From Ryuthela nishihirai (taxonomy: Eukaryota > Arthropoda > Arachnida > Araneae > Heptathelidae), in contig JAWZYU010000009.1 in assembly GCA_038380435.1 (NCBI GenBank), positions 64,943,901 through 65,007,900 on the forward strand: 64,000 bases of DNA, given 5' to 3'. The position numbers were made by a program, and so were the translations under genes. Below the pieces are notes generated by a model. That model did no database searches and was not told the DNA's origin. It was given only the letters and a program-made list of their open reading frames with translations. Positions 1,379-52,495 of this stretch are shown here, piece after piece (positions within the stretch are counted from its first letter, which is position 1; each line of letters begins with the position of its first letter).

Positions 1379-1412
1379 CCACCTCCCAATATTGATTAAT
1401 GGCATTGGCTAT
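1379..1412 (-). CDS. Candidate exon X of the split host gene
   Basis: A 34-nt open stretch lies between an acceptor (TTGCTTAAATAG) and a donor (G|GTAGTC). Read in phase 0, the phase left by the exon at 1598-1682, it encodes IANAINQYWEV and leaves one base. It is short and its acceptor has only a weak pyrimidine tract, so this is the least certain exon. If wrong, the next exon lies beyond the window. Confidence 0.4.
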
Positions 1413-1597
1413 CTATTTAAGCAACATTGCTTTCAGGAAAATTATCTTCATATGTGACTTCTCAAGCATAACATGTAGATGTGCTTTCAAGAATTTTAAA
1501 ACACTGAGCCAATGCTTTTTAATTTTATAAATGTAAAATATAAGTATCACTTTTTTTAAAAATAAGTATTTGTTCCCCATTATATAATGATATTCAC

Positions 1598-1682
1598 CTT
1601 GATTGGTCCCAATTCAACGTTTTCATAATGGAAATGTGCACACTCATCTAGCTTTGGAAATCTACTATCTCCAGAAGAATTT
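1598..1682 (-). CDS. Exon IX of the split host gene
   Basis: This 85-nt exon has acceptor TATCTCTTTATAG and donor AAG|GTGAAT. Its first base completes the arginine codon left by exon VIII (AG|A). It then encodes 28 residues, beginning NSSGDSRFPKLDEC and ending HYENVELGPIK, and exits in phase 0. Codon use is clearly protein-like and G+C is higher than in the flanks. The intron to exon VIII is only 191 nt, the shortest in the gene and free of transposons. I do not recognise the family. The next exon is either 1379-1412 or beyond the left edge. Confidence 0.8.
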
Positions 1683-1873
1683 CTATAAAGAGATAAAAAA
1701 ATACTAAATTAATTATAGAAATTATTCAATTCATGGGAAAAAAAACTATACTATATACTAGAGCACAAAACATTAATTACAGTTCAATTTATTAAAAAAA
1801 TTATGATAAAGAGTACATCTTATTCTCGCAATTAGTTATTTTGCCTCAGGTTTTATCAGTCTGGATTTTTCAC

Positions 1874-1994
1874 CTCTGAATATTCTTTTCTTCTTGAACA
1901 AAAATACCTAAATAATCAAGCCACAAGCTTTGGTGAATTTTTCTCAATAAATCTTCTGGGGATAATTTCTGTGGATGGCACTGGAATGCTTCTT
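1874..1994 (-). CDS. Exon VIII of the split host gene
   Basis: This 121-nt exon opens after TTTTTTGAG and closes at CAGAG|GTGAAA. An alternative acceptor 3 nt further in (GAGAAG) keeps the same frame. It takes one base (G) from exon VII to make a Glu codon and exits in phase 2. The peptide includes FQCHPQKLSPEDLLRK and LWLDYLGIFVQEEK, a helical-looking, well-ordered segment with no stops. An internal AG|GTATTT could serve as an alternative donor but would leave the wrong phase for exon IX. This is one of the strongest exons by coding appearance. Confidence 0.83.
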
Positions 1995-2045
1995 CTCAAA
2001 AAATGTAAAATGTAAATGTATAATATTTAAATATCTATAAACTTA

Positions 2046-2230
2046 AATCCCCCAAGCTCCTGCTTGCCACATAGGTTTGGCAGGAGCCTATCAGTATAAT
2101 GTGTTAATGATATCATTGAGGAAGGAAAAAGACCTCAACAGAAAAACAACACAGAAACATTCATATCTTAACAGGGGCTCAAATCGAAGTTCCTTTGATC
2201 AGTAGCTAAATGCATTAACCACTAAGCCAT
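2046..2230 (-). mobile_element. SINE-B copy 1, diverged
   Basis: The plus strand shows the 3' end (CCCCCAAGCTCCTGCTTGCC, then TTTGGCAGGAGCCTATCAG) and, at the right, the tRNA-like head with a degenerate box B. It is an old minus-oriented copy with many substitutions. It lies in the intron between exons VII and VIII. Confidence 0.65.
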
Positions 2231-2263
2231 CAAAACAGTTTATTTAAACTTAAAATTAAACTA

Positions 2264-4671
2264 ATTCATCATCATCATCCTCAAGCAGCCATGGGTTACG
2301 GAGGTCCAACCAGACCATGCAGTTTAATTCTCCAAGCATATCTATCCTAAGCTACATCTGCTGCATCCGGCCACTGCACACCAATTCTAACAAGGTCCTG
2401 TTTGACACTGTCTACCCATCGCATCCTAGGTCTGCCCCTCCTTCTGAGGCCTCTAGGCACACTGTTCATAACCTTATTCACCAATCTATAATTATCCATA
2501 CAGGCAACATGGCCAAACCAGCGGAGTCTCTCTCTGCACAATATGCTGCTTAAAGGAGGTTGCCGACTCCTTTGTCTAACCTCATCATTAATTACAAAGC
2601 TGAACCACCTAATGCCCAAGATACTGTGTAAGCATCTAGTTTCCTGTTATCTTGTTTACAAAGCATCCAAGTTTCACTACCATAACTAACCCTAGAAAGA
2701 ACCAAACTATTACACAGTCTAATTTTAGTCTTTAGGTGTATGCACCTATTTCTCCACACTCTCCATAGATTCTTAAAAGTCCCAGCAGCAATCCCTATTC
2801 ATCTGTTAATGTCATGCCACACATCACCAATATATGTTACATAGCTCCCAAGGTAATTAAACTGTGACACCTGCTCAAGACTGGGACCATTCAGATAAAC
2901 TGAATCACAGCCTGCCTGACCAATTTTCATCATTTTAGTTTTCTCTCTGTTTATATCCAAACCTACTCTACTGCCAGTCTCATCAACAGCTCGAATGAAA
3001 GAGTTCATCTCATCAACATCATTTGCCAAAAGGGCTAAATCATCAGCATAATCTAAATCAGAAATTTTCATATCTCCAGCCCATTTAAGTCCAAAATCTT
3101 TCCCTTGAAGTGAATTTCGCATAACATAATCAAAACCAAACTAAAGAGAAAAGGAGAGAAAATGCACCCTTGTCAAACACCAGAAGTAATGCTAAACCAA
3201 TTGCAACAAGCCTTACCGACTCTCACACATTGACTCAGTGTTATTACAGAGAGCTTTCATTAGGTTAACTAACTTGTCTGGTATACCATATGATCTCACA
3301 ATCAACCACAAATTATGATGATCAACAGAGTCGAAAGCCTTTTTAAAAACTGAAACTCTAAACATTTCTCAAGAATCTGCCTAAATGAAAATATCTGTCC
3401 ACACATCCCCTACCACTTCTGAATCCACATTGCTCATCACGCAATTGACTGTCAACCAGATTCTTAATTCTATTGAGCACAATCATGGAAAGAACTTTAC
3501 CTGGAACAGAGAGTAGGCTGATACCCCTATAGTTATCACAAGAACTGCGATCACCTTTTTTGAAAATAGGGATAATAATAGCTCTGGTAAAATCTTTAGG
3601 AACCATGCCTTTATCATAAAAGATATTCAGAATTTCAGTCATCTATGTGTTAACTGAAACATTACCAGCTCTAAGCATTTCTGTAGTAATTTCATCTACC
3701 CCTGGGGATTTATGAAGTTTAAGTTTAGAAATAGCCAAAATAACTTCAGATTGTGTTATAGGGCCAACATTAAAGCCACCAATGCATCTATCATCATTAC
3801 AAATAATGGGAGTAGAACTAACCACATTGTTTAGAACATCTCATAAATACTCAGCCCACCTAACCATGACAGAATCCTTACCTTCTATAACCTTACTTTG
3901 TTTATCCTTTAATCCTTGTATGCCTGTCCATTTTCTACCACATAAAACATTAACTATCTGGTACAGTTCTCTGCTGTTGTGCTGCCTAACTGCTTCCTCA
4001 GCTTTGTCAGCAAAGCCATCAAGCCAAAGATTCTTATCAGCAGCTAACTGATCCTTTACACATTTATTAAGCTCTCTGTAACCCTATTAGGACTAGTAGG
4101 GTACTGATTAAGGACATTCCTGCAGTTCCTTCTTTCTGAAATAAGCTCAAGTGCCTTATCACTTAAATAATTCTGCCTCCTCTGCTCCTTTTTTTGTAAA
4201 AGAGTGTTGTTAGTGTCCAAAAAAGCCTGTTTAAAATGATCCCATTCTTCTTCAACTTCAGTAGTAGGCAAACCATGACTATCATAATAACTAAGTAACC
4301 TATCATGGTAAGCTTTGGCTATAACTGTGTCTTTCAGAGCATCAGTAGTAAAAGTAAATTTTTTAACCCAGCACAACACTTTTTAAGTTGCAAGGCACTT
4401 TTAACAAGGTAATGGTCAGATCCAATTTCATCTCCCCTATATGACCTGGTATTCCTAACAGAACTAGCCCATTTGCTGTTAATAAATATATAATCAATCA
4501 TATTCTTATGCAGCCCATCAGGTGAAATCCATGTGTACTTATGTATGTTGCGGTGTTTGTAATATGTGTTAATTATTCTGAAACCATTGAGTTTACTTAC
4601 CTGTAGGAGACGTTGCCCATTGCCATTGCAGCTACCAATACCAAAAGAGCCTATCACCCCTCCCCTGGGAT
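2264..4671 (-). mobile_element. RTE-type LINE copy 1, 5'-truncated and broken
   Basis: This is a minus-strand non-LTR retrotransposon. From its 5' side it holds the end of the endonuclease domain (4334-4657: TWISPDGLHKNMIDYIF, then GSDHYLV), a linker, reverse transcriptase blocks (KSPGVDEITTEML near 3710; IIIPIFKKGDRSSCDNYRGI near 3520; GFRSGRGCVD near 3400; LDYADDLALLAND near 3040), and a C-terminal RWFGHVACMD-like segment ending near 2290. The 3' tail is a GATGATGATGATG repeat (2266-2278) rather than poly-A, as in RTE/BovB-type elements. Several frameshifts and stops show that it is dead. It is truncated within the endonuclease and meets an oppositely oriented copy at 4672. Confidence 0.82.
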
Positions 4672-5790
4672 TAACAGACGAATAGGGATTGCTGCCGGGA
4701 CTAGCTAGGGGTAGCTGGGAATGTTTCGGTTACCACATGGATGACTGAATTGTTAAATACCATTTATGGTCAAGGCATGGTTCCTAAGGATTTTACCAGA
4801 GCTATTATCATCTCTATTTTTTAAAAAATAGTGATTACAGTTCTTGTGATAACTATAGGTATATCAGCCTATTTTCTGTCCAGATAATGTTCTTTGCATG
4901 ATTGTGCTTATAATAGAATTAAGAATCTGGTTGACAGGCAATTGCTTGAGAGTAATGTGGATTCAGAAGTGGTAGGGGATGTGTAGATCAGATATTTCCA
5001 CTGAGGCTGATTCTTGAGAAATGTAAAGTTTCAGAAACCTTTGGTTACTACCTTCTTTGATTTCAAAAAGGCTTTCAACTCTGTTGATTGCCAAAATTTG
5101 TGGTTAATTTGGGATGTATGGCATACCAGACAAGTTAGTTAACATAATGAAAGCTCTCTATAATAACACTGAGTCATGTGAGAGTTGGTAAGGCTAGCAG
5201 CATTTGTATCTGGTGTTGGACAAGGATGCAATTTTTCTCCTTTTCTCTTTAGTTTGGTTATTGATTATGTTATGTGAAATTCACTGCAAGGGAAAGATTT
5301 TAACATTAAATGGTCTGGAGATCTGAAAATTTCTGATTTAGATTATGCTAATGATTTAGCCTTTTTGGCAAATGATGTTGATGAGATGAACTCTTTCATT
5401 CGAGCTGTTGATGAAACTGGTAGTGGAGTAGGTTTGGTTATAAACAGAGGGAAAACTAAAGTGATGAAAATTGGTCAGGCACGCTGTGATTCAGTTAATC
5501 TGAATGGTTGCAATCTTGAACAGGTGTTAGTTTATCTTGGGATCTCTGTAAACAGATACTGGTGATGTGCGGCATGAGATTAACAGACGGAGAGGGATTG
5601 CTGCAGGGACTTTTAAGAATCTATGGAGATTGTGGAGAAATAGGCGTATACACCTAAAGAATAAAATTAGACTGTATAATAGTTTGGTTCTTTCTAGGGT
5701 TAGTTATGGTAGTGAAACTTGGATGCTGTGTAAACAAGATAACAGGAAACTAGATGCTTTTGATTCTAGATGCTTACTGGCTCTGATTTG
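4672..5790 (+). mobile_element. RTE-type LINE copy 2, fragment, head to head with copy 1
   Basis: On the plus strand the same LINE resumes with a short misplaced piece (ATTAACAGACGAATAGGGAT near 4671, normally close to the 3' end), then the RT finger region (GTTCCTAAGGATTTTACCAG near 4777), and the palm with LDYANDLAFLAND near 5340, where the catalytic YADD reads YAND. It ends near KLDAFDSRCLL at about 5785 without the GATG tail. Frameshifts are frequent. The misplaced 3' piece at the junction suggests a rearranged insertion rather than two clean copies. Confidence 0.75.
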
Positions 5791-5796
5791 GTGTAT

Positions 5797-6660
5797 CTAT
5801 AATAAATACACAGATTATCTGTAGAAATAGACTTCAATAATGGTCTGGACAAACATCTGAAAAAATTATTGCTGACATGGCAGTAATCGAACTTGCAACT
5901 CTCTAGGGACATACCAGAGAACTCTACCATTAAACATGCATCATGCTAAAATCTTCCAGAATAAGACCTATAAATCTTGCACTTAGATGAGGCAGACCAT
6001 GTGCCATCTATACTTCAGGAGAGGCAACTTTTCCAATTGTTGCTAATGATTTAAATGTTAATGAGGAGGTCACACTTAAGTGTTCGTTATTGAAAATCCA
6101 TCCTAATAAATATACAGATTACCTGTAGACTTTTTACTGTAGTTCAACAAATGATTTCTGTAGTTCAACAATTATTACAAACATCTGAAAAGATGGTACA
6201 AATTATAGGTCTTATTCTGGAAGATTATTAGCATCTGATATTGGTAGAGTGCTCTAGCATATATCTAGAGAGTTACAAGTTTGATTCCCGCCACATCAGC
6301 GATAATTTTTTTCAGATGGAGCTTTAAGTTGTAATAATTGTTGAAGTCTATTCCTACAGGTAATCTGTGTATTTATTATGGATGGATTTTCAATAATAAA
6401 TGCTTAAGCATGATTGAGCTCCTCATTAACATCTAAATCATTAGCAACAATTGTAAAAGTTGTCTCTCCTGAAGTATAGATGGTGCAAGGTCCACCACAT
6501 CTCAGTGAAAGATTTATAGGTCTTATTCTGGAAGATTTTAGTGAGTGATACAAGTTTAATGGTAGAGTGCTCTGGCATGTATCTAGAGAGTAGTGGGTTT
6601 GATTCCTGCCACGTCAGTGATAATTTTTTTCAGATGTTTGTAATGTTTTGGGGTATTTTC
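5797..6660. repeat. SINE-C: cluster of tRNA-like repeats in both orientations
   Basis: At least three related units lie here: a minus-oriented one (about 5797-6128) and two plus-oriented ones (about 6137-6380 and 6349-6660). The plus units carry TGGTAGAGTGCTC (box A-like), a CTCTAG...CTAGAG anticodon-like stem and TTTGATTCCTGCC (box B-like), followed by GATAATTTTTTTCAGATG. Outer segments repeat TACAGGTAATCTGTG and TTTATTATGGATGGATTTTC. The central unit is bounded by a perfect 17-bp inverted repeat (6164-6180 and 6329-6345). Confidence 0.65.
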
Positions 6661-7016
6661 TTTCTAAGTGACTCTCTTATATGTATATAGTCACTGAAGG
6701 ATAAAGTTCGAAAGTTCAAATGTTTTCCTGCTGAAAAAAGTAAAAAATTATGTTGGCACAATTGCATGCATTGTGAGAAACCTGATACTTAAGGTTTAAA
6801 GAAATTTTATGTTTAGAACCACAGTTCAAATTCTTTGGATGTTTTAAGTAATATCATATGGATGACATGATGATGGACTGCAGAGAGCCTAATAGATGCT
6901 ATGTACAATGTAATAGCTATGGACTGCAGACTCGCAAGTTATGACATTTGATATCGTAACATACAGCAAAAGATGTGCTGCAGCATGCTAAATGTTAGCT
7001 CCAACTGGATATTCAC
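6661..7016. other. Intronic stretch, no feature seen
   Basis: AT-rich sequence between the SINE-C cluster and exon VII. I see no coding frame, element ends or strong repeat. Confidence 0.5.
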
Positions 7017-7054
7017 CTTCAACTGGATACCATCTACCAACATGGACATTCAAG
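7017..7054 (-). CDS. Exon VII of the split host gene
   Basis: This 38-nt exon lies between acceptor AAGATTTTATTAG and donor GTTGAAG|GTGAAT. Its first base completes AG|C (Ser) from exon VI. It then encodes LNVHVGRWYPVE and leaves one G for exon VIII. Taken alone it would be unconvincing. Its value is that it is exactly the phase 2-in, phase 1-out exon needed between exons VI and VIII, which do not join directly without a stop. Confidence 0.65.
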
Positions 7055-7498
7055 CTAATAAAATCTTGTGATAATAAGTTCCATGTGACCAGAAATATGG
7101 ACTTAAATGTGAAGTTTCTACTTTATATAAAAATAAGGTAAACAGTAAACTCAAAATGTAAGTAAATTAATAAATAGATCTATGCTGAATATTGTTATTC
7201 AACAGAAAGATAATGTCATATACTTACTATTAAGCCTGTACAATAATTTGTTTTATGCTTGTTGCTAATGTGATTTCAGTACTATGTATAGCATTGGTAC
7301 ATCTGAAATTAGCATTGTTGCTAGTAACCCAGTATGATAATGCAGCTGACATCTGTCTGAGGAATCCACCCCTCATATGAGGAGGTTCATCCCTTGTTAA
7401 TTATACAATGTAAATTCTAGATATTATATTATTAAACATATTCATTGTGAATATAGCTGGATATATTATGGATATATTTTATAATACACATCCTTTAA

Positions 7499-8457: not shown

Positions 8458-8461
8458 TTCG

Positions 8462-9143: not shown

Positions 9144-9273
9144 CTGGTTATATGTTTAATTTTGACACTGGGAGGGGCCATAAGAACAGATGAGCTGTCC
9201 ACTGTTATGCTTTCCTCTTTCTCCAGTGCACAGCCGGTGTTATCCTGCATATAAATTATCTCATCAAATACTT
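9144..9273 (-). CDS. Exon VI of the split host gene
   Basis: This 130-nt exon has acceptor GTGCAATTTTATTAG and donor ACCAG|GTAATT. It takes one G from exon V to form a Glu codon and then encodes VFDEIIYMQDNTGCALEK, ITVDSSSVLMAPPSVKIK and HIT,, exiting in phase 2. It is visibly G+C-richer than its flanks and stop-free in only this frame. The other two frames hit TAA within the exon. The frame also stays open upstream of the chosen acceptor as far as another AG, but that border would break the phase with exon V. No known domain recognised. Confidence 0.85.
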
Positions 9274-10151: not shown

Positions 10152-10153
10152 TA

Positions 10154-14574: not shown

Positions 14575-16792
14575 AAAACCTATACAATATGTGACACTTA
14601 CTTAAAATTTTATCCTTATATCTTAAATAATTAATTGATGCAAGCGTTACTTTGTGGCATTCCATTTTCAAAATAAAACAAAATATTAATAAATAGTGGT
14701 TTTTTGCAAAGAAATAATTTGGTTTATTTTCTTATATCTTAAATTTGTGGCCTTTTTTTACAGATAACAGTATGAGTGAGCCGAAGAAAAAATGCAGACA
14801 ATATAGTGTTGAACATTTAAAATATGGCTTTATTCCGTTACCAGGGAATAGTACTATACCTATGTGCCTTCTATGCAATAAAACTTTGTCAAACGATTCA
14901 ATGAAACCTTCTAAGCTTAAGGAACATTTGACAAAAGTCCATAGTGACAAAAAAGGTAAAGATTTAACTTTTTTTTAAAACAGTCAAAGAACAATATTTG
15001 AAAACACCGTCATTGCGACAACTCTTAACGACAACATCTGAGCGAGATGACGATGGACTGCATGCTTCTTATAACATTTCTTTACTGATTGCAAAGTCCA
15101 GAAAGCCGCACACCATTGGTGAAGAACTTATTCTACCAGCTGTAAGTGAGGTAATACGCACCGTGCTGCATAAACCCGCTTTCGATATTATAAGAATTCC
15201 ACTGAGCAATAATGCAGTACAAAGAAGGATTGACGAAATGGCTCAGTGCGTAGAAAATTCTTTATGTGAGTACTTAAAAACATCTGAATTCTCTATACAG
15301 CTTGACGAGTTAACTTTGCTAGGAAATGAAGCTTTACTTTTAGCTTATGTGAGATTTGTAAAAGAAGGAAAAATTTCCCAAGAATTGTTATTTGCCAAAT
15401 GTTTGGAAACTGATATGAAAGGTGAAACAATATTTAATGAATTAAAAAGATTTTTCGTTGCAAAAGCTATATCCTTGAGTAATATCCTCTCCGTTGCTAC
15501 TGACAGTGCTCTGGCAATGGTAGGACGACACCAAGGCTTTCTGGCATACTTAAAACAAGCTATACCAAATGTATTATCTGTACATTGTGTCATTCATCGA
15601 CAACATTTAGTTGCCAAAAATCTTAGTGAACGCTTGCATGGCTCACTAGATTATGTCATTAGAGCAGTTAATAAAATCAAAAGGAATGCCTTAAATGAGA
15701 GATTATTTGCTCAACTTTGGAAAACGATGAAGATTATAATCATTTACTACTTAACATGGAAGTTCGTTGGTTATCTAAAAGTGCATGTTTGGATCGATTT
15801 TATGCACTCTTTGATTCAGTGTTGGAATTCCTGGTAAGTAAAGACAATGACTTGCAGCTCAATTTAATTAATTCAAAAAATGACATAGCTTATATGACTG
15901 ACTTATTTGCAAAATTTAACGAAACCAATTTGAAGCTACAAGGTGATCAATTAAATTTAATCAAAACTAAAAGTATAATATCTGCATTTGTTGCAAAACT
16001 TTTTCTATACAAACAAAACTTGGGGAGAGAAGAATGCTCTCAGTTTTCAAATCTTTCAAAATTGCAAAAACGAGATGAAGATTTGCTTGCTTATTGTCAA
16101 CACTTAACGGCTCTTCATTCTGACCTCAGCCAAAGATTTGAAGATATTCTTCACTTGGTTATCCCCGATTGGGTGTTGGACCCTTTTGCAAAGTAGACCC
16201 ACAAACTCAGATGAATCCATACTAATACAGGAGCAATTTATTGAATTATCCACAAATGAGGAGCTGAAACCAATGTTTGAACAACAAGGATACCACAAAT
16301 TCTGGTTACAAAAACAGATACCAATTTTATATCCTGCATTATGGGTCACTGTACAGAAGCTGTTGATTGCTTTCCCATCTTCCTATTTAGTAGAACGTGG
16401 ATTTAGTGCAGTTATGAGCCTCATCACGAAAAAAAGAAACCAACTGGAAATTAGTGCTCGTGGAGACTTACGAATGTTACTCACAAACATAGAGCCGAAC
16501 ATAGATAATCTCATATCATCCCATCAGGTTCACCCATCTCATTGAAAAAAAAAATTATGTGTTTTTGTATTTTAAAACAAAAGTTATAATTTCAATAAAT
16601 ACTACTTTAAATATCAAAATGTTTTATTTATATTTTATTTTTACGTCACCATTTACCATTCAAGACATCAAAGTTAAATTTGTAATTTTTCTATTATGCA
16701 GTTATGTAGAGTTATTTCACTTGGAGGTTCATGGTCAGGTTTTTGCTATAAGAAGGGGTCCATGGGCATAGTAAGTTTGGGAACCACTGTTC
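14575..16792 (+). mobile_element. hAT element 1 (BED-finger type)
   Basis: The right terminus is GTTTGGGAACCACTG at 16778-16792, the usual hAT-type end (complement CAGTGGTTCCCAAAC). No matching left terminus is visible before 14600, so the 5' end is lost or rearranged. The left flank is minus-strand LINE copy 3, while the right flank is plus-strand LINE copy 4 (TTCTAAACAATG). A TTTTTTTACAG acceptor precedes the transposase ATG, which suggests an intron in the 5' part. Confidence 0.75.
14772..16545 (+). pseudogene. hAT transposase, BED zinc finger type, about 590 codons, frameshifted
   Basis: A transposase that would cut and paste the element. From the ATG it has a BED-type zinc finger (CLLCNKTLSNDSMKPSKLKE, with His residues in HLTKVHSD), then IPLSNNAVQRRIDEMA, the RNase H-like core (IQLDELTLLGNE; VATDSALAMVGRHQGF; HCVIHRQHLVAKNL), MEVRWLSKSACLDRFYALF and the C-terminal dimerisation segment (FPSSYLVERGFSAVMSL). 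Three breaks are visible: an extra T in the run near 14970, a shift near 15717 and a shift near 16190. It resembles the ZBED5/SCAND3-related hAT group. The frames are long and similar in divergence, so it is fairly young. Confidence 0.85.
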
Positions 16793-19399: not shown

Positions 19400-19446
19400 C
19401 TGCACACAGTGCCACCCTTAACCGGGCCTCTTGTTTCTCCTTTGAA
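19400..19446 (-). CDS. Exon V of the split host gene
   Basis: This 47-nt exon has acceptor CCGAGATTTCTAG, preceded on the minus strand by a long C-rich tract, and donor TGTGCAG|GTATCA. It takes TG from exon IV (TG|T, Cys), encodes SKEKQEARLRVALCA and leaves one G. In this frame it joins exons IV and VI without a stop. The other two frames do not. Introns on its two sides are 21.8 and 10.1 kb, both filled with transposons. Confidence 0.7.
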
Positions 19447-24979: not shown

Positions 24980-24983
24980 TTAA

Positions 24984-28417: not shown

Positions 28418-28421
28418 ATAT

Positions 28422-29454: not shown

Positions 29455-30545
29455 AAATTTGGACCTGTTGATCGTCATAATTTGTGGTTGATTGTGAGAT
29501 CATATGGTATACCTGACAAGTTAGTTAACATAATGAAAGCTTTCTATAATAACACTGAGTCGTGTGTGAGAGTTGGTAAGGCTTGTAGCAATTGGTTTAG
29601 CATTACTTCTGGTGTTCGACAAGGGTGCATTGTCTCCTTTTCTCTTTAGCTTGGTTATTGATTACGTTATGCGAAATTCAAGGGAAAGATTTCGGCCTTA
29701 AATGGACTGGAGATACGAAAATTTCTGATTTAAATTATGCTGATGACTTAGCCCTTTTAGCAAATGATGATGATGATGAGATGAACTCTTTCATTCGAGC
29801 TGTTGATGAAACTGGTAGTAGAGTAGGTTTGGTTATAAACAGAGAGAAAACTAAAGTGATGAAAATTGGTCAGGCAGGCTGTGATTTAGTTAATCTGAAG
29901 GGTTGCAATCTTGAACAGGTGTCACAGTTTAATTATCTTGGGAGCTATGTAACAGATAATGGTGATGTGCGGCATGAGATCAACAGACGAATAGGGATTG
30001 CTGCCGAGAATTTTAAGAATCTAGGGAGAGTGTGGAGAAATAGGCGTATACACCTAAAGACTAAAATTAGACTGTATAATAGTTTGGTTCTTTCTAGAGT
30101 TAGTTATGGTAGTGAACCTTGGACACTTTGTAAACAAGATAACAGGAAACTAGATGCTTTTGATTCCAGATGCTTACGCAGTATCTTGGGCATTAGGTGG
30201 TTCAACTTTGTAACTAATGATGAGGTTAGGCAAAGGAGTTTGCAACCTCCTTTAAGCAGCATATTGTGCAGAGAGAGACTCCGTTGGTTTGGCCATGTTA
30301 CCCGTGTGGATAATTATAGATTGGCGAATACGGTTATGAACAGTGTGCCTAAAGGCCTCAGAAAAAGAAAGGGGAGACCTAGGATGCGGTGAGCAGACAA
30401 TATCAAACAGGACCTTGTTAGAATTGGTGTGCAGTGGCCGGATGCAGTAGATGTAGCTAACGATAGACTTGCTTGGAGAACTAAATTGCACGGTCTGGTT
30501 GGACCTCCGTAGCCCATGGCTGCTTGAGGATGATGATGATGATAG
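29455..30545 (+). mobile_element. RTE-type LINE copy 5, 5'-truncated, best preserved
   Basis: Starts within the RT domain. A frame from 29443 carries GIPDKLVNIMKAFYNN and GVRQGCIVS, then a 2-bp loss shifts the frame. A 255-codon frame (29625-30392) holds LNYADDLALLAND, the thumb and the C-terminal region (KIRLYNSLVLSRVSYGSE; RLRWFGHVTRVDNYRL). It ends at TGA (30390-30392), where other copies have TGG, so the last 45 codons are cut off. The 3' tail is GATGATGATGATGATAGG. Truncation at the 5' side is typical of target-primed insertion. Confidence 0.87.
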
Positions 30546-31841: not shown

Positions 31842-31844
31842 TAT

Positions 31845-37421: not shown

Positions 37422-39428
37422 TTATGTGCTGAGGTATCTTCCTTCTGCAAAGAACCAGCAGTAGTCACCTATCATTGCTGGGTCCCACCTACCTTGGTAT
37501 CTCTCCTCCATGGTTAGGATATCCTGGTGAAATATTTCCCATTGCTCATCTCTGACAGCTCCTAAGTTCTTGGGAAAAAAGTCGAGATGCAAGTGCAAGA
37601 AATAGATCATCAAAGACATTCGGCAGCCAAGATTTTCATAGTTTTTGAGAACTTGAATGAGCTGATGATAGTTTTCCTCTTTGTGAATCCCCAGAAAATC
37701 CTGAACCACAGACGTGAAGGATTTCCATACAGCGCGTTCCTTCATATTCAGTTTTTCTTCGAAGACAGTATCATTCAGTAGCTTCTTGATCTGAGGATCA
37801 ACAAGGATTATTTCTTTGAGTTTGGCATCACTTAGCTTTGAAAAATTTTCCTTCAAGTGCAAAAACCCTTTACCAGTTTTGTCCATAGCATTTACAAAGT
37901 TTTTCATAAGCCCCAGTTCGATGTTCAGTGGTGGGAGCAGAACATCCGAGGGGTCAACTAGAGGCTTGTACCTCACATTACTCTTTCCAGGAATAAAAAA
38001 ATCTCTTTTGGGCCATTCTTTTGTTTTGCAGTGTTCCTTTCTGGCCCCTACTGTCCCACAAACATAGAAAACAGAAAACTTTTGTGAAGCCTTCTTGAAG
38101 CCCGAGCAAGAGAGTTGGGTTGGGTTGTTTTATCTGAGCGGCACTTTTTTGCACACCATGGGCTAAATGGCCAGGTCACAAAAACCCCGAAGGCTCAGAG
38201 AAGGTTGGGGGAGGGGACCCACTGGAACAGCTGTTAGGAGACAGATGGTAGCCTCCGTCAAGGCCCTCCAGCGTGTTCTTTAACGTGCACAGGGTATGGC
38301 TCTCCCGCACACGGGGCCACGGCTTAACGTCCCATCCGACGGACGGCGGCCTTTCCAAGCCCATCGGTGTCCCCTACTGACCGTGGGCAGGGCGGGGAAT
38401 TTTGCGGAGATAAATCTCAACGCTGACCCAGTTGGGACTCGAACCTGGGAACTGCAGATTACGAGCCTGGCGCGCTACCGAGCAAGAGAGAGATGATTTT
38501 AGGTCACCATACATTTTCCACATAAACTGGTCATATTTTATAGCAGTGAGTATTTTTTCCATACTTTCATAAGTTTCCTTCATTCCCACAGCCTGTGTCA
38601 CTGGAATGGAAGGTTTTTGGTTTCCTTTATGCAAAAGGATAACTTTTAAGCTGAATTTTGACGAATCTATAAATAGACACCATTCTTTAGGGTCGTGAGT
38701 TGCTCCAATTTCTTCCATCAGCCCTGAAATATCTGTGCAGAAACACAAAACCATCTTGCATCTCGTAATAAACAGATAAAGCCAAATTTCTCTTTCTAAA
38801 CAGAGAAACTATGGTACTCTTGGCCGGATGATTCCACTCTTGAACCTAAAACCTCAGCTTGTTATTTGGAAAGTCCTGGGTCTCGAACAAGATCATTTAT
38901 TTCATTTTGTTGAATCAGATGAGGCTTGTCTAACTTTTTAGGGGTGTATGTAGGATCAGGACCTGTATGTGCCTCAAAGTCTTCCTCTAATGAATGTGAA
39001 TCCATCTCCTCCCAGTTGGTTGGATGTGTTGGTATAGAAAGATCTTCTCCATGAAGAATTGGCCTTATAGCTGGAAGACACATTTGAATATTGTATTTTG
39101 TTTTTGCTCATTTTTGAAAAGACCGACAATTTAATTAAACAAAAATACTTGCTAGTGACTAGTTGGCTCACACCAAACTATTGGAACTGCAAAGGGCGTG
39201 GATTTTCTTACCTTTCAACCATTCACTCAGGCCAACAAAGCACAAATGCAGCATGTTTTGAACCCATGTTTTGTCCTGATCTCCAACATGACATCCAAAA
39301 TACAAGTTATAGGCTTTCTTCACAATCTTTGTCAAAGACCGACCCTGGAATTTTAAAATATAATTTCCACACAAATAACAAAACTTATCTGGCACGTTAA
39401 CACATCCGCCACGCTGCCTTTGTGCCAT
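37422..39428 (-). pseudogene. Multi-exon gene of a dispersed arthropod family, decayed, SINE inside
   Basis: Exon 1 (39212-39428) starts with ATG and has CYLCGNYILK, LYFGCHVGDQDKTW and a donor AAAG|GTAAGA; it looks zinc-binding. Exon 2 starts at about 39070 after TCTTCCAG and encodes RPILHGEDLSIP and KPHLIQQNEINDLVRD; it has one in-frame stop and one frameshift near 38800. The reading continues through CTDISGLMEEIGATHDPKEW, is interrupted by SINE-A (38115-38477), and resumes to a long open frame (37422-37976) with LVDPSDVLLPPLNIELGLM, DEQWEIFHQDILTMEERYQG and WDPAMIGDYCWF. I recall similar proteins as a multicopy family of unknown function in arthropod genomes. A diverged copy lies at 58780-59448. 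Confidence 0.7.
38115..38477 (-). mobile_element. SINE-A copy 7, with 13-bp target duplication
   Basis: Flanked by CCGAGCAAGAGAG (38102-38114 and 38478-38490). Lacks the first bases of the tRNA head, so it is 5'-truncated. It splits the reading frame of the 37-39 kb gene. Excising it and one duplication restores colinearity with the family, so it inserted into a once-continuous exon. Confidence 0.92.
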
Positions 39429-40722: not shown

Positions 40723-41198
40723 CAGTGCTGCTAAGAACTCTACAAAAAAAGCACGCTGATTAATACATTTATCTCATTCTTTTCTCTTTTTTTGCAATAT
40801 ATAAGAACCGGAACTGAAACACATTAGCTATTAAAAAGTCAATTTTTATCACGAACTTTAATTGAACACAAAAAATATTTTTTATACTGATATAAATTAC
40901 GAAGCAGAGAACACTAGTTTCAGATATAAATAATAAATGCAATATACAAAGCACAAAGAAAACACTGGCTATGTGTAATCTAGTTCTGACAACCATCAGT
41001 CACCGTTTCCCACATGCAACATATGCTTTAGAAAGCAGTCTTGACTACAGTACTCCACTATCAGCTAACGATCATTGTTGCTGCCAAAAAATAGCAGTGG
41101 CCACCCTCTGTCATGGGGTCAAAAGTCTTATGTCGTCGCCTTCGTGTATTAATTAGGTCCATCCGATCTCCACTACTCGAGAAAAACGTCATCCTTAC
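40723..41198. other. Intronic stretch, no feature seen
   Basis: AT-rich in the first half. No element ends or additional exon recognised before exon IV. Confidence 0.4.
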
Positions 41199-41262
41199 CA
41201 GGAAATGCTCATTACAAGCTCTCGGTAACGAATATTGTCAATGCCACAAGATGACAGACATC
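41199..41262 (-). CDS. Exon IV of the split host gene
   Basis: This 64-nt exon has an excellent acceptor (TTTTTTTCTTTCGTGATAG) and donor TCCTG|GTAAGG. It takes one G from exon III (GGA, Gly), encodes CLSSCGIDNIRYRELVMSIS and leaves TG for exon V. The other two frames contain stops. It is separated from exon III by about 820 nt. Confidence 0.72.
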
Positions 41263-42082
41263 CTATCACGAAAGAAAAAAACTTTATGCTCTTCTTCTAT
41301 CAGGCCTCGAAGATCTGTGTCAATACTAAAATTAACATTTATATAAAATAAAAAAGTTCCTTAACAAAATTTTTATGAAACATCTGATGACGCTGAGACG
41401 TTTTCCGTGACATTTGAATTGAGTGCTTGCACACAAAATAATCTACCACTAAAAACAATAGACAGAAAGAACGCTTATTTTTGTGCAGGTAGTTAAATAT
41501 CATTAATAAAAGAACTTTTTTATCACGGGTGAAGAACTTCCGAAAATTTGACCCAGCAATTTTAATCACAAACCAGTGCAGAGATATTTTAATCACAAAC
41601 CAGTGCAGAGATATACACTAACGCAGGTTCCCCAAACTTTATGTAGCATTAGATGGTTTTTTCTATAACTTTTTTTTTTGTTGCCCAAAAATATAAACGC
41701 ATGTAAACAAATCAGTGGAAAAAAAAATTCTCTACTTACTTAACCTTACAACAATAAGTCATTTATTAAGGTGTGCTCTAGAGCCTTTTAAAGACTAAGA
41801 AAAATACGGGGGGAAAAACCACGAACCTTGCGGTCAGAACTAGGTTTATCTTGTCGCGTTCATAAATGTTGGGCAATAATAGGACCATACTTTTAAACAA
41901 TACACTAACGTAGTAGGGGCAATTATTTTTTCATTTATGAGCATTAAAAAAATTAGCTGATTTTATAGAAGGTACACTTATGTAATATTAATAACTTAAT
42001 ATTGATCGAAACATATACTATTACATCATCACCTAAAACGAAAGGAAAAAATTGTCCTGAATAATTTCAGAATGTGTCGTAC
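41263..42082. other. Intron III-IV with a short tandem duplication
   Basis: TTTTAATCACAAACCAGTGC is repeated with a period of about 31 bp at 41557-41618. Otherwise AT-rich with no feature. Confidence 0.5.
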
Positions 42083-42147
42083 CTGATTCTTTAGCTTCTT
42101 GCTTAAATGAATATGAACATTTTTTATTTCCTTTACTGTCACTCATT
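42083..42147 (-). CDS. Exon III of the split host gene
   Basis: This 65-nt exon runs from acceptor ATATATTTTTTTAG to donor AATCAG|GTACGA. Its first base completes CG|A (Arg) from exon II. It encodes MSDSKGNKKCSYSFKQEAKE and leaves G. The acceptor region is the 3' tail of an adjacent SINE-B, so either the SINE landed just upstream of the exon or it supplied the acceptor. The peptide is low in complexity, so this exon rests on phase fit. Confidence 0.58.
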
Positions 42148-42154
42148 CTAAAAA

Positions 42155-42347
42155 AATATATCTCCTCAAGCAGATGCTTGCCACAGACGTCTGACAGGAG
42201 CCTGTCAGTTTACTTGCCATAGTAGAATGTCTGTGAAGAAGGCAGAATCTCAGCAGAAAAACAACACAAACATACATGCCTTACCCGGGACTCGAACCCA
42301 GATCCCATTGATCAGTAGACAAGCACGCTAACCACTCGGCCTAGGGC
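42155..42347 (-). mobile_element. SINE-B copy 10, abutting exon III
   Basis: Complete copy from TCTCCTCAAGCAGATGCTTG to AACCACTCGGCCTAGGGC, in the same orientation as the host gene. Its tail (TGAGGAGATATATTTTTTTAG on the minus strand) ends at the AG of the exon III acceptor. Confidence 0.88.
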
Positions 42348-43519: not shown

Positions 43520-43524
43520 GAGTC

Positions 43525-44428: not shown

Positions 44429-44436
44429 CCCTAGAC

Positions 44437-44757: not shown

Positions 44758-46820
44758 CCCTAGACAATCGAAAAGGAACTTTTAACGAATATGGACTGCG
44801 AGTCAAAATCGAGGGCGTTCTAAAAGTTCTTGACGCCTGTCTGTAGATTTGCACTTTCCACTGAAGATAATGAGTTACGGCTTGTTTGAAAGCTTATCTA
44901 AACTTGTTATTACCTGTTAAAATCAAAGGTTGTATCATCATTTCTCTCTTCGCTGGCGGCGCGTAAAGTTCGGTTTGAGAAATCTGTGCGTTGTTGCTAT
45001 GAAGCCTACTAAAGAAGGGGAAAAATTTTACATTTTCACAAGGAGGCAGCTTGGGGAAGACACGAAAAAAAATTCATGCCGATTTATCACAAGTATATGG
45101 GGATTACACCTGTTCATATGGTACTGTAACGGGATGGATGCGCAAATTCTGAGAAGGACGGCAGAGCTTCGAAGACCTCCCTCGTGCAGGAAGCCGAAGG
45201 GGGCCCGTGATCGAGAGAACTAGCTGCTGTTCATGAACTGTCATAAACCACACCGGCTGTATAACCCACACATCACCATTCAAATAATAAGTTTGGATGT
45301 CAGTGTGGAAACAATTATTCATCAACATTTAAAATTCTGAAATATCTGTGCCAAATGGGTACCCCACAAAATGACAGAAAGCAAAAAAGGGCTAGAGCCG
45401 ACTAGGGCAAGGAGATGCTGGCAATTTTGAATCTAGTGGCTTCAAACGATTAACAAACATTGTCACAGATGATGAGACGTGGTTTTATTACTATACAAAT
45501 CCCTGAACGATCGACAATTATGTTTGGGTTGCGGAAGGTGAACCACGTCCCCAAATCATCCGACAAGACTTTCGCCCAAGGAAGAGGATGTTCACAATTT
45601 TTTTCAATTCCCATGGAATGGTAGCTGTGGACACCTTACCTGAAAATATGAGGACTCTAAATGGCCAATAATACTACACCAACATTGTTTTGCCCAAAAT
45701 GGCTAAGGAAGATGAAGGAGCAACATTCAACATAAGACATGTTAAGGATTCTTCATGGCAATGCAAGTGCTCACAAACCCGGCAAGTTATGGTGTATCTG
45801 GAGCAGGAAAAAATATAAATTAAAAAATACCTATCTTCCTATAAGGGTCTTAAAAGGTAGAAAATAAACCTAAAAGCATATCGATGGGTACAATCATTCA
45901 CCGAGTTCGTATTCCCTTCGAAGGAAGATAGGACGTTGGTAATTCGAGTAGGGAAATCGGCGCCCTATCTTCCTTCGAAGTGAATACGAACTCAGTGAAG
46001 GATTGCACCATCGATATGGTTTGTTTATTTTCTACTTTTTAGGGCTGTATAAGACACACAGCTCGCTGCTTTCTGCACTTGTGTTCAGAAGATATAGGGG
46101 AACAATCATTCTCACATTGTCCCCTTTTTTTTAGGGGAGAAGAAAGCACAGGGGTCATTTTTTCATAAACTACGACATTCTTCGCATCAGAAGCTTTCAT
46201 TTGATGTATAGCTTGTTACTTTCGGCATTCGCGCTCTGGAGATATAGCAGAACAATTGTTTCGCTTTTTCCATTTTTAGGGAGAAGGATGCATGGGAGAT
46301 CAACTTTTGACAGTCTAGGGCAGGGGTTCTCTACGTGGGGTACGCCGTGAGAGCTCAAAAGTCGCTAGATCTAGTAACAAAGTCGCTAAGTTGGCAACAC
46401 TGTTACTGATTAATTTCTGAGAACTGAGTGGCGAAGCGCGGCGCTGTAGTTTATGTCTGTACACGTTTGTCAATCCTCCCTTCCCTACCTGAGAGCCGAA
46501 CAGCTGATAGCCCAGTCAAAACATCCATTCTAAGTGAATGTGTCTTCTTACTGCTCTATGTATTTGTTGTGATTTATTTCACTTGCTGTGCTTAGTTATT
46601 TTTAGTCTTCAGTTTACTGTGAAGTTAAATGAGCTGTTTCTAAAGTGCTTTGAAACAGATAAATGGATAATTAAGAAGAAAAGTAACGTGGAGCCGGAGT
46701 CGATTGCTTCTACATCTACCGTCATCATCTCATGTAAGTAAAAAGGTGGATTCAGTAGTAACTAAAAAGAACGCTAAATGTGAAACAATCAAGTAATAAA
46801 AAAATTAAAAAAGGAAATAT

Positions 46821-49078
46821 CATGAATCATTTAAAATTTGGCTTTACATTGACAGGAAATTTAGTAGAACTAAATCCACAGTGTGTTGTTTGCTCTGAAG
46901 TCCTGTCACAAAATTCTATGAAACCGTCTCTTTTATAGTGACACTTTGAAACAAAACATGAGCATTTAAAAAATAAGCCCTTAAGCTATTTTGAACGCCT
47001 TTTGGAAGACTTGACTAGTAGAATATAATTTATAATAATAATTATTTATTTCATGCAGGGGGTGACAGTAAAGCCAAGGTACAGGTAATTTTGGATATTA
47101 ATTTAAACGTTCAAGTGGCCGTAATTAAGCATTTTTCTGGTGTAGAAGAAAATGAAAGTGCACTTAAAGCGTCTTTACAGAGAGAGTAAGCCTTCAAATT
47201 GCCAAAGCCGGAAAGGCTCATACAATAGGCAGTCACTAATTCTTCCAGCATTGGAAGAAGTTTCTTGTATGCTTGGTCAAAAAGAGGCAAACCTTGTCAG
47301 AACCATTCCTTTGTCAAACGACACAGTTTCCAGGAGAATTAAAGATAATAAATAATAATATGGTCTGCAATATTAAGGACCAACTCATTCAAGCTATTCC
47401 ATGTACTCCGTGGTTTGTAGCTGGGTTAGCTCAAGCTCAATTACTATTATTCATATGGTACTGTAACGGGATTGTTTTTGTGCGTGGAAAATTCCAGGAT
47501 ACAATATTTGAAAATATTTTATTTTGTAAGCTTTGGTTTGGTTTACCTCTGAGCGGCACTTTTTTTGCACACCATGGGCTAAATGGCCAGGTCACATGGC
47601 CCCCGAAGGCTCAGAGAAGGTTGGGGGAGGGGACCCACTGGAACAGCTGTTGGGAGACAGATGGTAGCCTCCCGTCAAGGCCATCCAGCGTGTTCTTTAA
47701 CGTGCACAGGGTATGGCTCTTCCGCACACGGGGCCACGGCCTAACGTCCCATCCGACGGACGGCAGCCTTTCCAAACCCATCGGTGTCCCCTACTGACCG
47801 TGGCAGGGCGGGGAATTTTGCGGAGATAAATCTCAACGCTGACCCAGCTGGAACTCGAACCTGGGAACTACAGATTACGAGCCTGGCGCTATTTTGTAAG
47901 CCTCTCAAAACTTCTACTATGGTAAACTTCTACTACGGGTGAGGTTATTTTTAATATCATTGATTCATTTTTGGCCGAAAACAACCTTAAATGGAAAAAT
48001 TGTATTTCTTTATGTACTGACGGAGCAAAAGCAATAAGTGGTTATATCACAGGACTAGCAGAGCGTATAAAAACAAGTTGCACCAGAATGTAAGTTCACT
48101 CATTGTCGTCTTCACCGTGAAGCGCTGATAGCTAAATTTCTCCCCGATGATTTGAAAAGAGTTCTGGATGAAAGTGTACAAATGGTTAATTTCATCAAAA
48201 CCCGACCATTGAAGTCTCGACTTTTTCCAATTATGTGTGAAGAAATTGGTAGCCTGCATAAGAGATTGCAGCTTCACACAGAAGTACGTTGGTTGTCACG
48301 AGGAAATGTTCTTTGCCGTGTATTTGAACTCCACAATGAAGTACGGCTTTTTTTTCATGGACCATGAGTTTCGACTTTCTTTGAGACTACAAGGCTTAGA
48401 ACGGCTTCTATGAAGCTGCAGCTTCTATGGTTAGCATATGTAGCTGGTTTTTGAAAAAATGAATATTTTGAATTTATCATTGCAAGGAGACAACGTTGAT
48501 GTGTTTTATGTTGAGAAGAAAACAGAAGCCATGATAAAACATTTCTCTCTGGGAAAACGGAATTAAAAAGAACAGCTGTGACCAATTTCAGCGACTCATT
48601 TCTTAAAGAAAATGAGCAAACGATTGCAGACTTTAAAGACATCAGACAACAAGTAATCGTTCACTTAAGCACTCTTAAAACTCTTATAAGACAGTATTTT
48701 CTATTCCCTGATGAAACGCAAGAATGGATTCGAGACCCCTTCACATTTGATTTGGAAAAATATAAGCTTCCATTGTCCAATAAAAAAGAGTTGATTGAGA
48801 TATCTTGTGACAATAGCTTATAAAGCATTCATTCAAAAAGCCATTGATTAGTTTTTGGATTGGAGTGGAGAAGGAATATCCGACCTCAAGATTCTTACCT
48901 TCACAACAACTTATTTATGTGAAACTGGTTTTTCATCTTTAACTGCTTTAAAAAATAAATAGAGTTACAGGCTGGATGTTGAAGATGACTTGCGACTCTA
49001 CCTTAGCAAGATAACCCCAACCAGTGATGAACTGTACAAGCGCCACCATTTCACTGATTACCCAGTAAAATGTTTATA
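46821..49078 (+). pseudogene. hAT transposase, BED/SCAND3-like, heavily decayed
   Basis: Pieces in order: MNHLKFGFTL and CVVCSEVLSQNSMKPSLL (BED finger, cut by a stop, 46821-46938), LPALEEVSCMLGQKE and IPLSNDTVSRRIK (47250-47350), the catalytic-core remnants KFTHCRLHREALIAKF (48090-48140), KTRPLKSRLFPIMCEEIGSL and LHTEVRWLSRGNVLCRVFEL (48200-48340), and a C-terminal CETGFSSLTAL (about 48920). Many stops and frameshifts, plus the SINE-A at 47532. Different lineage from hAT element 1: the termini differ. Confidence 0.8.
47532..47889 (-). mobile_element. SINE-A copy 8, with 12-bp target duplication
   Basis: Flanked by TATTTTGTAAGC (47520-47531, 47890-47901). 5'-truncated: it stops at GAGCCTGGCGC, inside the tRNA-like head. 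It is the innermost level of the nest. Confidence 0.92.
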
Positions 49079-49155
49079 ATTTTATAAGATTTGTTAAATT
49101 GTTTGTCATTTTTTGTGTTTATCGATATATGTAATTTATGAAGAAAAAATTTAAT

Positions 49156-49251
49156 GTGTATATAAACAATCATATCAGAATAATATGACCAACTACCATA
49201 CACATACTACGGTAGGTGGTCATATTATTCTGACACGATTATGTATATATA
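49156..49251. repeat. About 40-bp hairpin near the 3' end of hAT element 2
   Basis: GTGTATATAAACAATCATAT...GAATAATATGACCAACTACC pairs with GGTAGGTGGTCATATTATTC...ATTATGTATATATAC around a loop near 49200. It may be a small inserted MITE or a hAT subterminal structure. Confidence 0.6.
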
Positions 49252-50139
49252 CGTTTCATTTTATTCCCATTGTTAAACTATAACTATAGTTTCATCTATC
49301 TATACAAGAGGTAGGCCAGTTACATACACATTTCCAGGGGGTAGCATAAAAGGATGAGAACTACCTGCCTAGGGCATTCCCCACGTCACAAGCTTTCATT
49401 TGGCACGTAATTCATTTTCTCTCTCAAGTTCGAAAGATATGGTGGAAGAACATTTTATCAAATCCACAAAAAAAAAACCGACCAACCAACAAATGTCAAA
49501 GCAATAGAAAGATGGCAAAAAAATCAAACAGCTCCTCCATCCTGCATATTCACCGGATCCAGCATGCAATTTTTGGTTGTTTCCAAAAAATAAAAAGGAA
49601 CTTGCTGGGAAACCTTTTTTTTTCAAGGGTCAAGACCTTGCAAAATGCATTCATTCAGAGTTGTGGAGTAAGCCCCAACAGAAGTACCTCAAACGTTCCA
49701 GAGTTGGCGTAGCATCTCTGCACATATATGCTGGAGGGAAGCACTTTGAAGGACAATAAAAGTTTTTTTTTGTTGAGAGGTATGTGCAATGGTTTTTATT
49801 ATGCAGACTCATGTCAGGAAGTTTTTGAATGCCTCTCGTACACTATATTACCCAACGTATTAGGATATTTCGGTGTTATGCGAGTGGAAAACCATGTTCA
49901 AACTACGGAACTTTGAAAAGAAGCTTTTCACAGAAAAATGTTACAGTAGATAAATTGTATATCTCAATTATATTTATCCAGATTTCGATTTTAGAAAATA
50001 TTCGTTTAATATTTAAAGAGTTATTGAGGCCGAAATATTTGGCAGTAGATGCTACTGTGTGTGTCTTAAACACTTTCAAAACTGATGCAAAGTGCAAAAT
50101 ATAATCCAAACTTCTGAAATTACTTTAATTTCAGTAAAA

Positions 50140-50300
50140 ATAATTACTCTTCAAGTAGCTGCTTGAAAATATCAGTTTATACGCCATAAAGAAAGTCTGT
50201 GAAGATAGCGAGACCTCAGCAGCAAGACAACACAAACATTAATACCTTACCTGGGTTCGAACCCAGATCCTTTCAATCAGTAGCTAGCACGCTAACCACG
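50140..50300 (-). mobile_element. SINE-B copy 11
   Basis: TACTCTTCAAGTAGCTGCTTG, then AATATCAGTTTATACGCCAT, box B complement GGTTCGAACCCAGATCC and CAGTAGCTAGCACGCTAACC. An inner deletion removes the second palindrome. Confidence 0.75.
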
Positions 50301-51734
50301 ATTTATTATAATTTTAAGGTAAATTCTTACGAGCAACAACTGTTGTTAAATGTTTCAGCTTCTAGAATCCCTCAAAGAGTAAACAAATATTGTTCAAATT
50401 CGTTTTTTTGAGATTTGCATTTTCTTGTGAAACTTTGCTACAGACGCTTAATTTATAGTTAAGGAGCTTTGAATGTCGTTCTCCATTCACTCAAAACATG
50501 GAAATGTCCCAATGCTTTTGATAATTTGACGTATTTTGTTCATTTCCAGAGAAAAAACGTGGAAGAAAAACGTTCAATTTCAAATGATTAATTTGATTTT
50601 TAACTGTTACTGCCTACTGAATAATACAAGTTATATAAATATATTAATTACATTAATTTCGCTGGTTATTAAAAAATACATTATTAAAATTGCTTCGTCC
50701 ATTTCGATTACATTACTTTCTTTCTTCATGGCTGTGAAAGTAAAAAATTTATACGAAAAACTACTACACATAAGGACGCACTACCACTTGTCAGAAAGAA
50801 GTATGAAACCTTTCTTTTACTCTAGTTAAGTGCAGAAAAATACTTTGGAAATTGAAATCCCATTTGAGACAATAGGAGGCATCAAAACACAGGTTGCTTT
50901 TTATAAATGCATTTGAAATAGTTTATGTAAGAAATTCTGTATATGGAGAGTTAAAGAAGCTGGAAATATTCACAAATAGCAGCACCAGTTGAAACAATTC
51001 ATCTGAAAAGTTAATTCCAACAGATTATTAAAAAGAAGGCAATAATTGTCATAAAGTTTTTGAACTAAAATCTACAAAGTATTTTTAGCAGTTTATGGTT
51101 ATTTCAATTTCATATAATTAATAATGTTTTTTCGACAACGAGCTAAGCTGTTAAACGTTTCAGCTGGATATCAAGACTTAGACTAATTTGAATTATTTTT
51201 CAGTTCCATTTAAAAAAAGCTTGTTTAAGAAGTTAATGAGCTGTGAATTTCTACTGAAATGAGTACATTTCTGATAAAGTGATAATGAATGTGTTTATAC
51301 ATCATATTAAGACTTGATGTTGAATATAAACGAAAAATCTGGTTAAATCAGTTACACGCAAGAAAAAATTATGCAATCTATTTCATGTTATCCTTTGGCT
51401 AACAATATCCGAAATTATAATACTTCTTTCATATCATTACAAACACGGAGTTTATTTTTTATTCATTTAACATGGTGTAAGATTCAAAAATTCCTTTGTG
51501 TAACATTAAACTGCTGACAAACTTCTGAGTAAAAACAAAGTTTCCAGTGCTTCAAACTACTCTTATTCATTAACAGATTGTGCAATGGAAGCATATACAA
51601 ATTTGCATCAGTCTGCAAACGGTTAAAACAGTACTATTATGTCGGTATTTACGTTCAGGTCATGACTTGAAGCAAAGATTAGATATCGCCGCTTCAGACA
51701 ATCAAATGGGTGGGCTAATGGAGTCACAGTTCAC
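50301..51734. other. Intronic stretch, no feature seen
   Basis: AT-rich, no element ends or exons recognised. Open frames at 49903-50829 are AT-driven. Confidence 0.4.
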
Positions 51735-51850
51735 CGAATTACAGACGTAACGCACATAGCCAACAGCGAAACAGCTTCGGCAAGTCGACTTTGCCAGGAA
51801 TTACTACGGGTGAAACACCAAAGCTTTGAAATAGGCCCTTTTCTAATCTT
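51735..51850 (-). CDS. Exon II of the split host gene
   Basis: This 116-nt exon has acceptor GTTTTCTGTGGGCAG and donor AATTCG|GTGAAC. Entered in phase 0, it encodes KIRKGPISKLWCFTRSNSWQ and SRLAEAVSLLAMCVTSVI, leaving CG for exon III. It is the most convincing exon by residue pattern. The same frame stays open upstream past several AGs, so the acceptor could lie a little further upstream, at 51869 or 51888 for example, in the same frame. Confidence 0.8.
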
Positions 51851-52423
51851 CTGCCCACAGAAAACTTTGAACTTCAAGCACAGAACTTGGAACAGAAGAA
51901 AATAGTGTAAATCAATACTTTTAACTGTCTCAGCATGTAAAACTGGATGTTCATATTAAAATCAAAGTATTACATAACCTAAGTAAAATAATAATTTCAT
52001 GAGAGCTTATATTATAATTTATTATAATATTTGTTATTAATAGTCAGAGATGAACGAGGCACTCTGAAACCAAACCTCCCCTTTCACACACTCAAAAAAA
52101 TAGAAAAATTACCGTTCTTCAAAATTACCTTGATTGTATACCACAGAATTTATGATTGCGTATGTGATCTATGAAAATTACACCTTACACACGAAAGATA
52201 AAAAAAATTCTATTTTTCTTGATACATCCACCCTCTTTCTGTTTCTACTTCGCTCATCGCAAAAAAAAGTTGCCGCCCTAAACAAGCGCTGATGCTTGTA
52301 CTCTGATTCGGGCTGAATGGTTAATATTCATGCTTACATATTGATCAGAAAATTATTTTTTATCTGTAATTATCAAATTTGGTGTACTGTGTGACCTGTG
52401 TTGGGTTGAGTTCTGGTTCCTAC

Positions 52424-52495
52424 CTGCTGTGGCTCGGGATTAAATACATTGCGAGTGCACAAAATCTCTGGGGGCGATGTTGTCACCTCGGCTAC
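52424..52495 (-). CDS. Exon I (first recognised exon) of the split host gene
   Basis: This 72-nt exon has acceptor TTATTTCATAACTTTCAAG and donor CAGCAG|GTAGGA. Phase 0 at both ends. It encodes VAEVTTSPPEILCTRNVFNP then EPQQ. G+C is well above the flanks. No start codon, so earlier exons must exist to the right. I found no phase-compatible one with confidence. Confidence 0.72.

Follow-up and report, generated by a model that had tools for sequence, protein, structure and literature searches.

Two probable early coding exons of an ARHGAP32/33-family gene in a 64-kb stretch of the Ryuthela nishihirai genome

The stretch of DNA considered here (the window) comprises 64,000 nucleotides from the spider Ryuthela nishihirai (Araneae; Heptathelidae; GenBank assembly GCA_038380435.1, contig JAWZYU010000009.1, hereafter C9, positions 64,943,901 to 65,007,900). 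Comparison with other spider proteins leaves little doubt that two conserved coding exons, both from the early part of an ARHGAP32/33-family (PX-SH3-RhoGAP) gene, lie on its minus strand in this liphistiid genome. An earlier note, made from the letters alone, had chained nine or ten short open islands by splice phase into a single 50-kb minus-strand gene. A split gene on that strand was borne out, both by spider homologues and by exons continuing below the window; the unity of the ten islands survived only in part, with 9144-9273 and 1598-1682 supported by homology and the other eight unsupported.

Exons A and B and their continuation below the window

The two exons inside the window, designated A and B, open an 11-exon model. 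Bare coordinates below are window positions; those prefixed C9 are contig positions.

9144..9273, minus strand: exon A of the ARHGAP32/33-like gene; conservation among spiders covers its 3′ part, MAPPSVKIKHIT
1598..1682, minus strand: exon B of the same gene; reads RNSSGDSRFPKLDECAHFHYENVELGPIK, just before the PX-like region
C9:64932276-64932539, minus strand: exon 3; starts VFLCEKQ, 11 kb outside the window
C9:64928459-64928554, minus strand: exon 4
C9:64922064-64922186, minus strand: exon 5
C9:64882976-64883053, minus strand: exon 6
C9:64869061-64869151, minus strand: exon 7
C9:64857910-64858059, minus strand: exon 8
C9:64849700-64849802, minus strand: exon 9; carries GIYRLSG
C9:64834877-64835021, minus strand: exon 10
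C9:64828412-64828599, minus strand: exon 11

A protein search with the last islands of the chain returned 11 matches among 19 candidates, four of them with spider names: Caerostris (P0001) and Trichonephila (P0003), both annotated "hypothetical", and Stegodyphus (P0002) and Araneus (P0005), both annotated "Rho GTPase-activating protein 32". Exon A joins exon B directly and in frame, MAPPSVKIKHIT being followed by RNSSGDSRFPKLDECAHFHYENVELGPIK. The Caerostris, Stegodyphus and Trichonephila proteins read MAPPNVKIKHITRSPSSSGDTRFPKLDECAHFHYENVELGPIK uninterrupted across this junction and also contain MAPPNVKIKHIT, matching exon A. The junction likewise lacks an insert in a Uloborus diversus protein annotated "rho GTPase-activating protein 32-like" (P0132), while the Araneus protein starts after it. 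Exon A matches its own genome only at its own place. Homology fixes its donor and 3′ coding part, so that the borders proposed earlier for these two islands stand as regards frame, the donor of the first and both ends of the second; the 5′ border of the first, at 9273, is not secured by it. That two junctions were said to work only once an intermediate exon or internal acceptor had been found proved misleading, because the A–B join seen in spider proteins needs neither.

The downstream exons were located by tblastn, with the spider proteins and an approximate human ARHGAP32 sequence, in contiguous stretches below the window. Nine exons lie there in order on the same strand, and all 11 modelled exons are open, with AG/GT borders and compatible phases throughout. 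First to last, they span about 125 kb, and the gene reaches at least 115 kb below the window's first base; C-terminal pieces (PKSLAISTPTKLLSLEEAR… and KKSPSGWKSFF…) lie about 17 and 24 kb lower than the last modelled exon.

In Pfam, the 483-residue product of the model matches RhoGAP (PF00620, 3.2e-44, profile positions 1-144 of 148, residues 340-483) and, ahead of it, SH3 (PF00018, 2.3e-8, residues 221-264). The best match among solved structures is 3iug, the Rho/Cdc42/Rac GTPase-activating protein RICS (1.3e-68), followed by 6gvc, ARHGAP12 (9.7e-39); among those structures, ARHGAP32 is thus the RhoGAP family to which the domain comes closest. GIYRLSG is intact, and its R is, we take it, the arginine finger of RhoGAP. 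The PX-like region aligns with the matching part of the Stegodyphus, Trichonephila and Araneus proteins, each of which carries PF00787. Aligned parts of the model are 68-75% identical to the five spider homologues; over 451 aligned columns, identity is 75% to the Uloborus protein and 56% to the approximate human ARHGAP32 sequence. ARHGAP32 (RICS, p250GAP, PX-RICS) and ARHGAP33 (TCGAP, SNX26, NOMA-GAP) have PX, SH3 and RhoGAP in an order that the PX-like region, SH3 and RhoGAP of the spider gene follow, and share with it both the conserved FPKxxECAHFHYENVE just before PX and GIYRLSG. Since the two window exons continue into PX-like, SH3 and RhoGAP domains, the product that had been called unrecognised is recognisable as a Rho GTPase-activating protein 32/33 homologue.

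Several observations weigh against this assignment or blur its edges. The PX match (PF00787, 6.1e-4, 20.7 bits) falls just under the cut-off of 21.6; the Uloborus protein likewise has no PX match at E<=0.001. The comparison with human ARHGAP32 uses an approximate sequence, not a database record. The model ends inside the RhoGAP profile, at position 144 of 148, and the exon expected to complete that domain was not found between the model and the later C-terminal pieces. At the other end, exon A has a weak acceptor at 9273 (−4.5 bits, leave-one-out score) and its 5′ border is not fixed, the frame remaining open for 10 codons above 9273 and the Caerostris, Stegodyphus and Trichonephila models starting at or adjoining the methionine of MAPP; nor is the start codon fixed. 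Exon A may be the first coding exon.

The ten-island chain and its chance expectation

As a description of the letters, the chain was accurate. Letter-by-letter extraction found AG before and GT after each of the ten islands (10/10) on the minus strand; the cumulative phases 0,2,1,2,1,2,1,2,0 were reproduced from the island lengths, and the 772-nucleotide join translates into 257 residues without a stop. How often such chains arise was gauged by counting stop-free combinations of island and frame (34-130 nucleotides, pyrimidine-rich acceptor, donor-like GT, introns of at least 150 nucleotides). The minus strand of the window holds 996 combinations, enough for about 7.6e18 chains of ten in compatible phase; the plus strand has 613 (5.9e16 chains) and a mononucleotide shuffle of the minus strand 599 (4.8e16 chains), while two further shuffles gave 607 and 672. 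Such islands are therefore commoner on the real minus strand than on the plus strand or in the shuffles (599-672). Because a fitting 10-chain is available on either strand and in shuffled sequence, phase chaining alone is uninformative, and the ten-island chain as such is not more than chance.

The remaining eight islands are best read as open tracts of intronic or upstream sequence, and three lie in repeats:

52424..52495, minus strand: rejected island, inside a dispersed repeat at about 52386-52510
51735..51850, minus strand: unsupported island, single genome match (its own place)
42083..42147, minus strand: unsupported island, adjoining the end of a very common repeat at 42149-42207
41199..41262, minus strand: unsupported island, single match, no homologue detected
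19400..19446, minus strand: rejected island, overlapping a dispersed repeat
7017..7054, minus strand: rejected island, in a dispersed repeat within the intron between A and B
1874..1994, minus strand: rejected island, single-match intronic sequence
1379..1412, minus strand: rejected island; the real next exon is at C9:64932276-64932539

All recognised transposons had been placed in the introns of the chain, which fails once repeats are counted, as 52424-52495, 19400-19446 and 7017-7054 all overlap dispersed repeats. The first recurs in at least 39 other genome places (a lower bound, 40 of 110 candidates having been scored), all 39 overlapping the island and 36 spanning the whole of it; its donor GTAGG reads CTAGG in four of four repeat copies aligned. 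That repeat has a core of about 115 bp, with alignments of up to about 220-230 bp at 73-81% identity in those places. With flanks, 19400-19446 has 16 other genome matches, 16/16 overlapping the island (four cover most of it, the rest only its 5′ part), and 7017-7054 recurs in 12 other places, again always overlapping (12/12). The repeat at 42149-42207, with 34 further copies in the 254 kb examined and many genome-wide, supplies the acceptor tract of 42083-42147; the island itself has one other, partial genome match (42 bases, 90%, on contig C16). Both 41190-41272 and 1864-2004 (the latter being 1874-1994 with flanks) match the genome only at their own places.

Splice scores, from a matrix built on 11 exons only and hence a rough guide, are weak for 19400-19446 (−0.8 and 2.5 bits), for 51735-51850 (acceptor −2.1, donor −0.9) and for the donor of 1379-1412 (−3.5), and good for 42083-42147 (9.9 and 6.6), for 1874-1994 (7.4 and 9.7) and for the donor of 7017-7054 (9.3). 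The matrix rates the real exon A acceptor weak, yet some rejected islands good.

Searches with the joined 257-residue product were uninformative because it is a mixture. The best Pfam profile match was Alkyl_sulf_C (E 0.09, below the cut-off; E 0.041, also below it, for the last 153 residues), and there were no matches to solved structures at E<=10. The five islands upstream of exon A, taken alone, matched no Pfam family. Searched together with the model, they gave one match among 725 candidates (limited to proteins not far from 605 residues in length), the Uloborus protein, whose match extends over 20% of the searched part, roughly as long as the A–B region; the five islands themselves had no homologue among these 725, nor had 19400-19446 among the 19 of the first search. 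Against the Uloborus N-terminus, blastp-short found no match to them at E<=10. In the reverse direction, the N-termini of the Uloborus protein, of P0011 and of the approximate human ARHGAP32 sequence found nothing convincing in the 254 kb examined (best E 1.0), and in this the human protein differs from the spider gene.

Each of the three islands at the lower end conflicts with the homologues. Both 7017-7054 and 1874-1994 are absent as exons from the Caerostris, Stegodyphus, Trichonephila and Uloborus proteins; inserted singly between A and B, the former shifts the frame to a stop and the latter runs into stops, while together they keep the frame (159 nucleotides). As the exon after B, 1379-1412 would give IANAINQ, where the relatives and the real exon give V(F/L)LC.

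A second copy and the alternative readings

A protein search of the whole genome gave 10 matches from 13 candidates, of which five lie on C9 and four on contig C11; a weak one on C19 (E 0.30) was disregarded. They reveal one other copy, a second ARHGAP32-like gene at C11:70500811-70659904 (loci L035, L039, L041 and L042), on the minus strand and in the same exon order, with 53-81% identity. Stops occur in two of the four C11 matches and are taken to be intron ends picked up by the draft query; the corresponding exon stretches in the alignments read without a stop. The C11 exon B has the same acceptor position and phase as exon B in the window. When nine island peptides were searched against 11.1 kb of C11, from just below its exon B upwards, 1598-1682 alone gave a clear match (6e-16), the remaining eight scoring 0.11 or worse. 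Exon A of the C11 gene was not found in those 11.1 kb; it may have diverged or be located farther upstream. The same 11.1 kb holds five copies (92-96% identity) of the 137-bp repeat at window 1-137. The Uloborus protein is nearer the C11 paralogue than the window gene, being closer to it in three of four stretches and about equal in the fourth, where alignment lengths differ. In an eight-row tree, rooted on the approximate human sequence with a very long branch, the window gene groups with the Caerostris, Stegodyphus, Trichonephila and Araneus proteins at 87/93, below the 95/80 mark. The C9/C11 pair is consistent with an ancient duplication that predates the divergence of mesotheles from the remaining spiders.

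That the chain was right as a whole, with nine or ten exons encoding one unrecognised 257-residue product, has next to no probability left, although its borders and phases are as described and the pair 1874-1994 and 7017-7054 jointly keeps the frame, the former with good sites at both ends. Phase chains are plentiful by chance, three islands overlap repeats, and the five upstream islands lack homologues; in spider proteins B follows A without an insert, the gene really continues after 1598 at exon 3, and homology contradicts 7017-7054, 1874-1994 and 1379-1412 in the main transcript. A novel product of this kind is not supported. The frame-keeping pair could still be a lineage-specific, mutually dependent cassette adding 53 residues before the PX domain, a reading we consider highly improbable; if true, an exon born from a repeat would have been recruited along with a partner of single-copy sequence.

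Somewhat less remote, though still improbable, is that a long isoform of this gene uses some upstream islands (such as 41199-41262, 51735-51850 or 42083-42147) as true 5′ exons, whether translated or not. Ahead of the shared region, the Uloborus protein carries 115 residues (before PPSVRIKH) and the approximate human ARHGAP32 sequence about 97, which leaves room for coding exons upstream; the open frame above 9273 and the weak acceptor there bear on the same question, the former for such exons, the latter against. Against them, too, none of the five islands resembles the Uloborus N-terminus, that protein bears a low-quality flag and lies nearer the C11 paralogue, and three spider models begin at or beside the MAPP methionine. 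The existence of the C11 copy might also suggest that C11 is the working gene and the C9 locus a decayed pseudogene of the family; this is very unlikely, since every one of the 11 modelled exons is open and has canonical sites, and the product is so similar to its five spider homologues. Two exons of a PX-SH3-RhoGAP gene remain the reading by far the best supported by the comparisons above.

Other sequence features and implications

Elsewhere in the window, two open reading frames (144 and 235 residues) at 37422-38808 on the minus strand encode an unrecognised, probably transposon-derived protein; the one scanned, of 235 residues, had DNA_pack_N as its best Pfam match (E 0.038, below the cut-off). 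Overlapping reading frames in shifted frames at 14968-16545 on the plus strand look like a decayed hAT-type transposase; two of three pieces were scanned and had no Pfam match. Reverse-transcriptase fragments (RVT_1) at 2799-3140 (minus) and 29601-30392 (plus) apparently belong to one common non-LTR (long terminal repeat) element. In the assembly at large, small contigs (e.g., C1316, C1414, C1436 and C1500) carry COX1 twice, about 14.24 kb apart, and resemble tandemly repeated mitochondrial genomes; many more COX1 matches in large contigs, some with TAA/TAG stops, are likely nuclear copies. By COX1 the nearest matches are to the liphistiid genus Songthela (91% and 90%), with horseshoe crabs next at 82%; the host is thus most probably a mesothele spider, and the earlier note was right in expecting an arthropod.

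What had appeared as an unknown 50-kb gene becomes a named one, an ordinary gene of an already known family, and splice-phase chaining in a large, repeat-rich genome is seen to be no evidence on its own. The two mammalian family members share PX, SH3 and RhoGAP, and a role of mammalian members in receptor trafficking, ER-to-Golgi (endoplasmic reticulum) transport and spine morphogenesis is reported, according to passages of PMC4742909. By analogy with the family, the PX and SH3 domains would place the spider protein at membranes and partners, and the RhoGAP arginine would enter the active site of a Rho-type GTPase (Cdc42/Rac/Rho) and speed GTP hydrolysis, switching it off. The predicted function is that of a GTPase-activating protein on Cdc42/Rac/Rho, with a probable part in controlling actin and membrane traffic, like vertebrate ARHGAP32/33, and nothing in the data suggests a different one in the spider. 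The two ARHGAP32-like copies in a mesothele spider would fit the arachnopulmonate genome duplication, mentioned as proposed in a passage of PMC11646306, which also lists transcriptomes for Heptathela, Ryuthela and Liphistius, and add a small data point to it.

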